From positions 94,393 to 158,392 of the forward strand of contig JAOZFG010000035.1 in assembly GCA_027491435.1 (NCBI GenBank): a DNA stretch of 64,000 bases, written 5' to 3'. Under the pieces are notes generated by a model, which was not told where the DNA came from, made no database searches, and saw nothing but the letters and a program-made list of their open reading frames with translations. How positions within the stretch are numbered: position 1 is the stretch's first letter; each line of letters starts with the position of its first letter. This DNA comes from Thermoproteota archaeon (GTDB lineage: Archaea; Korarchaeota; Korarchaeia; Korarchaeales; Korarchaeaceae). Made by a program: the position numbers and the translations under genes. Positions 49,737 to 55,495 of this stretch are shown here, piece after piece.

Positions 49737-51725
49737 ATGCAGCTGATGATGGCAAAACCTGCTAAACCCTCGAGGCTGCTCCTGTTATCTATTGTCTCCA
49801 TATTGCTGCTGGCAGCTTCCGCCTCGGCTTTACAGGTAATAGCTTCGGGTGGAGGCAAAACCCCCTTTGGAGATCTCGATGCTATAAAGGCTTCAGCTGA
49901 TGAGGCGCTAAGCAAGGCCAGCCCCGAAACTAAGGCATGTCTCGAATGTCACGCCAACCCTAACGTAGTAAAGATGCAGGCCCATTACTATGACTGGCTT
50001 AGAAGCAAACACGCTTGGTCCACTCCGCCTGAACTTAACGATTACTACAGGGAGATATTCGGAGAGGAAGCTAACTTAGCCCCTAAGTTTGCCAACTATC
50101 AGTACAACGTGGGTTGCTACGAGTGTCATGGTATGTTCGCTGACCCAGATAGGCCAGACGTTATAGACCACCACGGGTATAAGATAGTGGTCGACGTCAC
50201 CCCCAAAGATTGCCAGCAGTGCCACTACAAAGAAACTAAGGAGATGAGCTGGTCTAAGCACGCTTTCGCTGCACTTAACGCCAACTTAAAGCCCTGGTAC
50301 ACTCTAGTTCTTCAGAAGACTTATGGGGATGAAGCTAAAGCTGAGTACGACAAGTTGTACAAGGAGGTTGTGGAGTGGCCTTTCTACAAGAAGTACGCTA
50401 AGGCTTTCTACCAGGGAGATCCCAAGGCTGTCAACGCCAGCAAATACTACTTCTACGGGGACAAGTTCAAGTTCGTGTCAACTCTATACCCATCCCATGG
50501 GATGCTCACCCACGAAGCTGGGGGCAACTTAACCGCCAACTACCTGGGAGTCGACTACCACTTCATAATGGAACACCCGAAGTACAACAACAGCTATGTC
50601 TACCTGGCTTGTATGGAATGCCATGGAAGCGCCGTACTGCCTGCAAAGCCCAACGCAATAGTGGGAGTTGACGCCCCCTACGCTAAAGTTGACGGAACTC
50701 CCGAGATGGTACTACTTGGGTGGCCTAACAACGGGGCCGGCAGGGTGAACCCAGACGGTAGTTTGGGAAGCTGTGCCACCTGCCATACCAGGCACACCTT
50801 CAGCATAGAAGAGGCCAGGAAGCCACACACTTGTGGTCAATGTCACTTGGGATATGACCACCCGCAAATAGAGATATACGAGGAGAGCAAGCATGGAAAC
50901 ATATACGACTCCGAGGGAGAGAACTGGAACTGGGAGAACCTGCCGTGGAGGCCTGGCATAGACTTCAGAGCCCCGACCTGTGCTACTTGTCACATGAGCC
51001 ACTTAGTGGATGAAAACGGCAAGGTGATCGTTGAGGGGACCCATGACTTAGGAGCTAGGCTGACTTGGGAGATTCAGGCCAAGTGGAGCTTCGGTCAGTC
51101 GTACTACCCTGACCCGCTGAACAACAAGTTCGCTAAGAAGAGGCCCGACTGGAAGAACCCGTTAGAGCTGGGTAACGCTGCCTTATCATCCCCCGACAAC
51201 CCGAGGGGGAGGATGATGAGCGTCTGCAAGTCGTGTCACGCCAGCGACTGGGTGTACAGTTACTTCACCTGGTATGACAGCGTGAATACAGACTACAACA
51301 TAACTTGGGAGTACACCAGAGCCCTACTCAAGAAGGCCTATGAGAAGGGAATACAGGTGGATAGGAAAGGTCAGACGATAATGGGCAGGAAGGCTCTAGG
51401 AGATGACACCGACGAGTACATGGAGATAATGTACTATTACATATGGCACCATGAGGGCAGGAGGTGGAGGATGGGCGCTTCAATGATGGGACCAGACTAC
51501 ACGCACTGGCTCGGTATAGTTGACACCGTCATGGATAAGCTCGGCAGGATGACCGCTTACTACGAGACTCAGCTCAAGATAAAGCAACTTGAGGCCAAGA
51601 TATCTTCAAGCGCCAAGTCCCCAGTGACCCAGGGAGTCAACATGTTCAACTTCCTGGCGGTTGGTCTAGCAATAATAGCCATACTCCTCGTCTTGGCTGA
51701 CATCCTAATCAGGAGGAGGAAATAA
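49737..51725 (+). CDS. Octaheme c-type cytochrome, hydroxylamine oxidoreductase (HAO) family, signal peptide plus C-terminal membrane anchor
   Basis: Eight CxxCH: CLECH, CYECH, CQQCH, CMECH, CATCH, CGQCH, CATCH, CKSCH; HAO-like [94 protein letters not shown]. Confidence 0.9.
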   Translation: [662 protein letters not shown]

Positions 51726-51732
51726 AAATCCA

Positions 51733-51770
51733 CCTTTTTTCCCTCCCCATTCAACACAATTTTTTTATCT
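51733..51770 (+). terminator. Poly-T tracts downstream of the octaheme cytochrome gene
   Basis: ccttttttccc and caatttttttatc between 51725 and ccmC start 51791 (the second tract may be the ccmC TATA). Confidence 0.45.
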
Positions 51771-51790
51771 GAGGGCCGTTAACACACCCT

Positions 51791-53888: not shown

Positions 53889-54510
53889 GAGGATCATCTG
53901 GAAGGACCTATTAGTTGAGGTCAGGAACCTACCAGAGCTGGGCAGTGCCGTGGTCTTTTCAGTGGCGTCGTCAAGCCTTCTAGGCTTCTCGGTAAGCAGG
54001 CTTTCCGTGGATCCTCTGCTCATTCTCACCGTCGGCTTGATTATGGTGGAACTCTTCCTGGCCGTCTTCACGTCACTGATGGGCGTGGTAAAGGAAGAGG
54101 AGACGGGAACCCTTGACGGGCTCAGGTCAAGCCCCGTAGATCCATCCACCGTTTTCTTGGCCAAGCTAGCTGTCAACATCATACTCCTGGAAACCCTAAC
54201 CTCCATATCTCTAGTGGCCACCCTCCTCTTCTCAGGAACTGTTGAGGGGTATCACAAGCTCGTTCTCATGATACTCTCTCTGGGAATTTACCTGGCGGCC
54301 ATCTCCTCGTTCTCCTCAGCCCTCTCAATATACCTTCAGGCAAGGGGGGTACTCCTGCCTACCATGATACTAGTGCTCAGCTTGCCGGCCATCCAGGAGG
54401 CCCTAGCTTTCATGCTAAGGGAGGAGCCACTGAGTCCCCTGTTGCTCTCCCTCTCCGGACTTGCCTTCACGGGCATAGCTTCCTGGCTATCAGTTTACGT
54501 ACTAGACTGA
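53872..54510 (+). CDS. ccmB: CcmB-like haem exporter permease
   Basis: MSLKVRRIIWKDLLVEVRNLPELGSAVVFSVASSSLLGFS, EEETGTLDGLRSSPVDPSTVFLAKLAVNI; multi-TM, overlaps ccmA. Confidence 0.82.
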   Translation: MSLKVRRIIWKDLLVEVRNLPELGSAVVFSVASSSLLGFSVSRLSVDPLLILTVGLIMVELFLAVFTSLMGVVKEEETGTLDGLRSSPVDPSTVFLAKLAVNIILLETLTSISLVATLLFSGTVEGYHKLVLMILSLGIYLAAISSFSSALSIYLQARGVLLPTMILVLSLPAIQEALAFMLREEPLSPLLLSLSGLAFTGIASWLSVYVLD

Positions 54511-54547
54511 ATTTTTTATCGAAGTTATCTAGGGTTCCCGGGGTAGC

Positions 54548-55495
54548 ATGAGGGCTAGAATTCCGCTACTTATCATGCTAGCTCTATCCCTAGCGTTAAC
54601 CAGTTCTGTGGGTCAACCGGTCTACTTCCTCGATCTAGAGCCTGGGACCTACCTAGTCTACAACCTAACAGGGGTATATAACGGGATAAAGAGGTATGAG
54701 GTCGTGGGAAAGGCCGAGGTTGATGGTAGGCCGTGTACCCTGGTCAAGTCCTTCCTATTCGTCAAGACAGAGAATAAGCTCTTCCAGCAAGGGGCTTCCC
54801 TCAACTCCACCTTCTGTTACGATGATAAGGGGAGGCCCATCCTAGAGGATGTTTTAGTGCCTGAACAGCTGAACTTCTCAGTCAGGAGGGTTAAAACGAA
54901 GTACTGGTGGCAGGACTGGCAAGTAGCCAAGGCCCAGGTAAGGATAGAGTACAGCGTCAACGGGACAATCATAAAGGAGTACTTGGTGGACGCCAAGAGG
55001 ATGGTCGTGGTTCACGAGGGTAAGGAGTACCCTTTCTCTTGGGAGAACCTAACCTCGGTGCTACCTTATACCCCTAGCGCCCTGATGGAGCCCCACATAG
55101 ACTTGTCCCTAGACTTCAAATTGGGGATGAAGAAGTTCGTGTCCATGGGAGGGGACAATGCCACCCTAGAGGTGGTGGCGATAGACGAGGTACAGACCCC
55201 TGTGGGGACTTTTCTTTGCTACAGGCTAGTGATAAAGGGGTTCGACAGGGGCATCCCCTACGAGTCGACTGTGTTCGTGACTAAGGACAGGCCCAGGATA
55301 ACCGTGTTCTACGTAACCGAGTCGGAAGGCATAAAGCAGTCCGGCTTCCTAATAGATGCAAACCTGAGGAGAGAGGCAAACCTTTACTACGGGGCCTTGG
55401 TAATGCTCGTGGTGCTCGGTTCGATAATTGGTTACAAGTTCGTAGCTGGCTTGAAGAAGGAAAAGGGGGGAAAGAAGAGGGGAGAAGGTGGTTAG
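54548..55495 (+). CDS. Secreted, C-terminally membrane-anchored protein of unknown function in ccm cluster
   Basis: Signal peptide, ~280-aa extracytoplasmic beta-rich domain, TM, basic tail KKEKGGKKRGEGG. Confidence 0.7.
   Translation: MRARIPLLIMLALSLALTSSVGQPVYFLDLEPGTYLVYNLTGVYNGIKRYEVVGKAEVDGRPCTLVKSFLFVKTENKLFQQGASLNSTFCYDDKGRPILEDVLVPEQLNFSVRRVKTKYWWQDWQVAKAQVRIEYSVNGTIIKEYLVDAKRMVVVHEGKEYPFSWENLTSVLPYTPSALMEPHIDLSLDFKLGMKKFVSMGGDNATLEVVAIDEVQTPVGTFLCYRLVIKGFDRGIPYESTVFVTKDRPRITVFYVTESEGIKQSGFLIDANLRREANLYYGALVMLVVLGSIIGYKFVAGLKKEKGGKKRGEGG

Follow-up and report, generated by a model that had tools for sequence, protein, structure and literature searches.

An archaea-only clade of membrane-anchored octahaem cytochromes of the HAO family includes a korarchaeal protein encoded beside cytochrome c maturation genes

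Octahaem cytochromes of the hydroxylamine oxidoreductase (HAO) family are widespread outside the clade of ammonia oxidisers and anammox bacteria, where their function is largely unknown (PMC9213671), and HAO-family proteins have been reported in archaea generally (PMC4429474). The octahaem cytochromes of the Pyrodictiaceae are annotated as hao (K10535), and their role is unclear (PMC13140500). No report of an HAO-family protein in korarchaea was found in the literature searched, in which coverage of subscription papers was limited, so that absence is not proven. Here we describe such a protein, encoded on the forward strand of a window of 64,000 nucleotides (the whole stretch of DNA analysed, from contig JAOZFG010000035.1 of assembly GCA_027491435.1), and the cytochrome c maturation (ccm) genes that follow it. 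The host is a heat-loving archaeon with a genome of 1.64 Mb in 43 contigs, a completeness of 99.5% and an estimated contamination of 2.5%. The genome was compared with a phylum sample of 29 genomes and within a genus of 16 species, host included. A sequence of 20 nucleotides taken to be that of the Korarchaeota 16S primer Kor236F, a match that the papers searched did not confirm, occurs in 11 of the 11 near-complete genomes of the genus; this and the small number of genomes in the phylum mark the host as probably korarchaeal. The features of the octahaem gene are as follows (TM, transmembrane).

49737 to 51725, + strand: HAO-family octahaem cytochrome c, 662 amino acids (PF13447, match to 4qo5, AlphaFold2 model with Foldseek)
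49737 to 49832, + strand: N-terminal hydrophobic segment, a probable signal peptide for export (hydropathy, residues 9-27; helix 11-37 in the model)
49938 to 51239, + strand: eight CxxCH haem sites, starting at 49938, 50115, 50211, 50610, 50772, 50832, 50979 and 51225
50226 to 50609, + strand: insert peculiar to the clade, separating haem sites 3 and 4 (their motifs start 133 residues apart, compared to 35-62 outside the clade)
50856 to 50861, + strand: Asp374-His375, the counterpart of Asp267-His268 of Nitrosomonas europaea HAO (alignment)
51483 to 51509, + strand: Met583, Tyr588 and Trp591; Trp591 (51507-51509) lies in the column of Tyr467 (P460) and Tyr588 (51498-51500) outside it
51654 to 51710, + strand: C-terminal TM helix, residues 640-658, followed by RRRK (positive inside) (hydropathy, AlphaFold2 model)

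The gene is a single uninterrupted reading frame holding all eight CxxCH motifs. When the whole genome was scanned for CxxCH, 58 matches were found compared to 51 with the reversed control pattern, and the eight in this gene were packed into 1.3 kb, a clustering far beyond chance. The protein matched PF13447 with an E value of 1e-21 and 77.7 bits (Pfam cut-off, 21.9). The best sequence match in the PDB was the Ignicoccus hospitalis octahaem cytochrome IhOCC (4qo5, E 9e-65), followed by 6h5l, 1fgj, 4n4j, 6t5e and 6hif, which comprise HAO, HOX, reducing HAO and hydrazine dehydrogenase (HDH); no match fell outside the HAO family. An AlphaFold2 model built from 30 sequences was of moderate confidence (pLDDT 72.9, pTM 0.69), and with this model Foldseek returned HAO-family structures alone at E<0.001 (4qo5, E 7e-22; 1fgj, E 2e-9), 6t5e being described as Brocadia fulgida HAO and 6h5l as the reducing Kuenenia complex. 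The fourth CxxCH by order aligned with the catalytic haem 4 of HAO. There was no match to the octahaem tetrathionate reductase (OTR) families PF11783 and TIGR04315, unlike the second octahaem protein of this genome. These findings clearly show that the protein belongs to the HAO octahaem family. They bear out the first-pass annotation, made from the sequence alone, which had also read a signal peptide and a membrane anchor that now agree with the N-terminal hydrophobic segment and the TM helix at 640-658. The protein would thus be exported, with its C terminus anchoring it to the outside of the cytoplasmic membrane.

Related octahaem proteins turned up at 72 loci across the 85,462 genomes scanned, and nothing was found in the viral contigs searched. 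In a tree of 42 rows with 200 bootstrap trees, the protein, its congeners and nine proteins from metagenome-assembled genomes (MAGs) of Pyrodictiaceae, Desulfurococcales and Thermoproteota formed one archaea-only clade (99/98), and this group was unbroken in 200 of the 200 bootstrap trees. The MAGs of Pyrodictiaceae and Desulfurococcales are of vent origin. The clade stood apart from the IhOCC clade (100/99), whose members include many bacterial proteins, and from the HAO, HOX and reducing-HAO structures. IhOCC itself grouped with L062, L070 and L086 (98/96) within that other clade, to which the korarchaeal protein does not belong. How the three groups are ordered is less secure than the clade itself because some HAO rows were long-branched and partial: for PDB entries, the tree and the alignments used only the matched stretches of the search output. 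The tree and the structure model place the protein inside the HAO family but on a new branch of it.

The clade is also marked by its sequence. The distance between haem motifs 3 and 4 was 123-174 residues in the clade compared to 35-62 elsewhere, which corresponds to an insert of 60-110 residues; two outliers at 132 are explained by the korarchaeal copies L027 and L029, which had been counted among the others. The same miscounting very probably explains the single C-terminal TM helix outside the clade. Nearly all complete clade members carry this helix, with L034 as the exception, and His175, His375, His571-572 and Trp591 are invariant in the clade. The Pyrodictiaceae and Desulfurococcales proteins share the insert, the Asp-His pair, Trp591 and, in most, the C-terminal helix, and ccm genes adjoin one of the Pyrodictiaceae-group loci (L032) as in the host. 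In contrast, their identity to the host protein is only 39-47% and their C termini are longer, reaching up to 884 amino acids; some of their loci have an NrfD module or a nitrate reductase-like gene next door, and the host genome has neither. IhOCC is the closest solved structure by both sequence and fold, is likewise archaeal and membrane-associated, and also lacks the P460 Tyr, having Phe there, but it has Asp-Val for Asp-His and is without the insert.

The Asp267-His268 pair of N. europaea HAO is catalytic. Its counterpart, Asp374-His375, is invariant in the octahaem clade and kept in 1fgj, 4n4j, 6t5e and 6h5l, whereas the IhOCC-type clade nearly always has Val or Thr in place of the His. 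The first-pass annotation had offered a Tyr within a 24-residue segment as the possible P460 cross-link residue, and this was not borne out. The context of Tyr467 in the 1fgj chain is GGWTY467TEGW, and three MAFFT strategies (L-INS-i, E-INS-i and G-INS-i) all put Trp591 in the Tyr467 column and Tyr588 three residues upstream of it. A P460 cross-link is therefore not supported: the distal Asp-His at haem 4 expected of an oxidative P460 enzyme (HAO, HOX or HDH) is present, but the cross-linking Tyr is absent. All 12 clade members that extend to this column have Trp in it, preceded at a distance of eight residues by Met (Met583 in the host protein), and the reducing Kuenenia HAO 6h5l likewise has Trp there. 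In a Pyrodictiaceae orthologue (L033, 3740-6289, + strand) a Tyr directly precedes the invariant Trp (PDYAYW), and this was the only clade member with a Tyr beside the key column.

In PMC8940962, which cites Haase 2017, the signature of epsilon-Hao is a Trp in place of the Tyr and a Met eight positions earlier, and Trp591 and Met583 reproduce it. The absence of the Tyr is taken as a mark of reductive HAOs (PMC12758564; PMC8940962). In a 2025 anammox paper the key residue of reductive HAOs is described as His; shifting a gap by one residue would bring His590 into the key column, still with no Tyr. The host protein thus resembles the epsilonproteobacterial Hao and Kuenenia 6h5l in its Trp and its Asp-His pair, and epsilon-Hao also in its Met. 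It differs from them in its clade, and it has a C-terminal anchor instead of a recognised partner of the HaoC/NapC or kustc0457 type. With N. europaea HAO (1fgj) it shares eight haems, the haem-4 Asp-His pair and the overall fold, but not the Tyr467 cross-link, and identity in the structural alignment was only 17%.

The most likely role of the protein, held with about as much belief as doubt, is that of an extracytoplasmic N-oxide reductase acting on nitrite, nitric oxide (NO) or hydroxylamine on the outside of the cytoplasmic membrane. Catalysis probably takes place at haem 4, on whose distal side Asp374-His375 lies, and since there is no Tyr at the cross-link position there would be no P460 haem and the direction of the reaction is most likely reductive. 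The enzyme may convert nitrite, NO or hydroxylamine to ammonium, or partly to NO or NH2OH, with electrons that would come ultimately from the quinone pool, for example through an FdnGHI-like formate dehydrogenase. The reductase role is supported by the Trp/Met signature, the retained Asp-His pair and the Trp of 6h5l, and by the gene neighbourhoods of relatives. Downstream of the orthologue in Pyrodictium sp. SZUA-1443 come genes for a tetrahaem protein, a 4Fe-4S protein, a protein of the NrfD/DsrP type and a cytochrome with one haem, which is the layout of a quinol-linked reductase. A NapA-like gene lies approximately 3 kb downstream of the orthologue in one Pyrodictiaceae MAG, and NarG-, NapA- or type II molybdenum enzymes of that kind were found in 4 of the 6 relatives examined, one NarG being above the curated cut-off. 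These neighbourhoods suggest quinol-linked reduction, together with nitrate metabolism in several of the relatives.

Several results weigh against a reductase of N-oxides. The neighbour genes of relatives are no evidence from the host itself, and the absence of the Tyr is an empirical marker and no proof of direction. The first-pass annotation had seen no NapC/NrfH-type partner in the window, and the genome-wide CxxCH scan extended this to the whole genome: it gave no NapC/NrfH-like cytochrome and no CxxCH cluster of the NapC/HaoC tetrahaem quinol dehydrogenase type that accompanies epsilon-Hao. No NrfD was found in the host genome either, so that NrfD was rejected there as a general electron partner; the NrfD loci read in congeners were molybdenum-FeS operons. 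Neither of the two molybdopterin enzymes of the host is an evident nitrate reductase. One is the FdnGHI-like formate dehydrogenase (L021, host contig C36, 1-5154, - strand), with a 1209-amino-acid Tat-exported molybdopterin subunit, an FeS subunit and a cytochrome b, and the other is a 648-amino-acid FdhA/BisC-like protein on contig C38. Both the nitrite supply and the quinol link are thus invisible in the host, which has no evident nitrate reductase, NrfD or NapC/NrfH-like cytochrome. The hydroxylamine reductase HCP is present in the host but missing from 5 of the 7 HAO-bearing genomes of the genus, and a reverse-HURM pairing of HAO with HCP was rejected as a conserved pair on this ground. 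Pyrodictium delaneyi Hulk is reported not to use nitrite (PMC5556600), which would weigh here if Hulk carries an orthologue.

The same fold could instead serve in a terminal reductase whose substrate is a sulfur compound (sulfite, tetrathionate or polysulfide) or extracellular Fe(III), which we regard as improbable but as the strongest of the other explanations. Function is open for HAO proteins outside clade III, and sulfur reduction was proposed for the HAOs of Tharpellota (PMC9213671). Some HAO-bearing congeners have NrfD-FeS-molybdenum operons beside sulfide:quinone-reductase-like genes, but these operons are not in the host genome. Two octahaem cytochromes of P. delaneyi occur in membrane complexes, one of them 60-fold up on ferrihydrite (PMC8105010), which would count here only if they belong to this clade. 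The korarchaeal protein, unlike the IhOCC-type clade, retains the catalytic Asp-His of nitrogen-active HAOs. It is doubtful that the protein serves in electron transfer only, as an eight-haem link that joins membrane donors to partners outside the cytoplasm, for instance the OTR-like octahaem, because its catalytic-site residues are invariant and a pure conduit would not need them. A conduit would suit a host in which no dedicated donor or substrate supply was seen and which has further exported octahaem and dihaem cytochromes, but the OTR-like gene is present in only 2 of the 7 HAO-bearing genomes. That the protein works oxidatively, like the HAO and hydrazine dehydrogenase known from ammonia oxidisers and anammox bacteria, is very unlikely. 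Such a role would fit the family, the Asp-His pair and the nearness of Tyr588 to the P460 position; however, Trp rather than Tyr stands in the Tyr467 column under all three alignment strategies, the protein lies outside the HAO/HOX group in the tree, and the genome-wide CxxCH scan gave no cytochrome c554/cM552 partner.

If the protein is a reductase of N-oxides, this would place a nitrogen-oxide redox enzyme in a korarchaeal lineage, none having been found there in the literature searched. More tentatively, and with the balance against it, an archaea-only membrane-anchored HAO subfamily may allow korarchaea and Pyrodictiaceae to use N-oxides for respiration, or to detoxify them, by reducing them to ammonium at hydrothermal temperature, the korarchaeal form drawing on quinol or membrane donors without a known partner module. 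The clade is a compact test case, with nitrogen-active site residues kept, the P460 Tyr lost and an anchor of its own.

The octahaem gene is followed directly by the maturation genes, in the order given by the first-pass annotation, whose coordinates proved correct.

51791 to 52843, + strand: ccmC-like haem handling protein with WNWDP (PF01578, E 3e-24; TIGR01191, E 2e-15, below the curated cut-off)
52840 to 53253, + strand: ccmE of the archaeal CxxxY type, GCHKAY (no Pfam match; 59-61% identity to ccmE of relatives at the same place)
53250 to 53888, + strand: ccmA-like ABC ATPase (TIGR01189, 123.5 bits compared to a cut-off of 131.6; sits between ccmE and ccmB in relatives)
53872 to 54510, + strand: ccmB (PF03379, E 5e-10)
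54548 to 55495, + strand: membrane-anchored exported protein of no known function, 315 amino acids (N- and C-terminal hydrophobic segments)

The spacings from the octahaem gene through ccmC, ccmE and ccmA to ccmB are 65, -4, -4 and -17 nucleotides, respectively. The haem site of CcmE (CxxxY for HxxxY) was GCHKAY in the host and the relatives checked, GCHRAY in one and GCHESY in a Pyrodictiaceae relative. A ccmF gene is present on contig C38 (5704-8667) with 53% identity to the CcmF of a relative (itself TIGR00353, E 3e-32), beside a thioredoxin-like gene and near a HerA-type ATPase gene (C38, 5704-12882). These findings show an archaeal-variant System I Ccm, by which the protein would be matured: CcmC, E, A and B from the locus, and CcmF and the thioredoxin-like protein from elsewhere. 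That the protein is followed by its own maturation genes, as first annotated, is only partly right: the ccm genes do adjoin it, but another contig carries ccmF and the thioredoxin-like gene, and the genome encodes three further predicted c-type cytochromes, the OTR-like octahaem and two dihaem proteins, which would need Ccm as well.

In intact loci of congeners the order is HerA-type ATPase, octahaem, ccmC-E-A-B, thioredoxin-like gene and ccmF. The host's thioredoxin-like gene and ccmF lie on C38 beside a HerA-type gene, which suggests that an ancestral cluster was split and that octahaem-ccmC-E-A-B moved to its present place; C38 is probably the original site. The 54548-55495 open reading frame had no Pfam or NCBIfam match. 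It lies between ccmB and branched-chain amino acid transporter genes, stands where relatives have the thioredoxin-ccmF pair and is not found behind ccmB in them, and it is probably outside the octahaem-ccm module.

The octahaem gene was found in 6 of the 15 other species of the genus at 76-83% identity; the ccm cluster lay behind it in 5 of those 6, the contig of the sixth ending there, and the locus was syntenic in several. In a 43-contig draft with 2.5% estimated contamination, one might suspect that assembly or binning had joined bacterial DNA to an archaeal contig. The probability of such an artefact is negligible: these independent assemblies contradict it, the GC content over the octahaem-ccm genes (0.51-0.535) equals that of the flanks, a non-coding bin upstream being lower at 0.41, and the closest kin outside the genus are archaeal. 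The archaeal host of the first-pass annotation thus stands. Within the genus, ccmF was present in 8 of the 16 genomes, which makes cytochrome c maturation a patchy trait and its gain or loss, with that of cytochrome-based respiration, directly testable. The octahaem gene was present in 7 of these 8 and absent from the 8 genomes without ccmF. In the eighth ccmF genome (G012), a dihaem C_GCAxxG protein adjoins the ccm genes (L109).

The sole other tightly packed multihaem gene of the host encodes the OTR-family octahaem with an N-terminal TM helix (PF11783, TIGR04315; L020, contig C39, 3322-4971, - strand). It was found in the host and one other genome (G017) among the 29 of the phylum, and OTR was rejected as an obligate partner since only 2 of the 7 HAO-bearing genomes have it. 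A protoglobin gene lies on the other strand of C39 (5778-6359, + strand), approximately 0.8 kb away. Two paralogous exported dihaem C_GCAxxG proteins with two CxxCH each are encoded on contigs C17 (L022, 2707-3693, - strand) and C31 (L023, 2522-3526, - strand), adjoining genes for multi-pass membrane proteins with a weak DUF4405 match. The description of the other genes in the window as fermentative or ferredoxin-based was incomplete for the host, which also has the FdnGHI-like formate dehydrogenase with its cytochrome b subunit.

Other arrangements of multihaem genes were seen among the loci. In Nitrospirae JdFR-88 (L063, 7899-10723, + strand), IhOCC-type and epsilon-Hao-like octahaem proteins are encoded in tandem, and a genome from another class of the phylum (L018, G001:C200, 2188-5039, - strand) has tandem multihaem proteins with 8 and 9 CxxCH and C-terminal TM helices. 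In two related archaeal MAGs, a protein of 864-865 amino acids is encoded directly downstream of the octahaem (L031, 2212-4806, + strand; L032, 10153-12750, + strand), and the L031 copy, which was scanned, had no family match. In the window itself, an FCSD/sulfide:quinone-reductase-like flavoprotein is encoded at 43372-44700 on the - strand, approximately 5 kb upstream of the octahaem gene.

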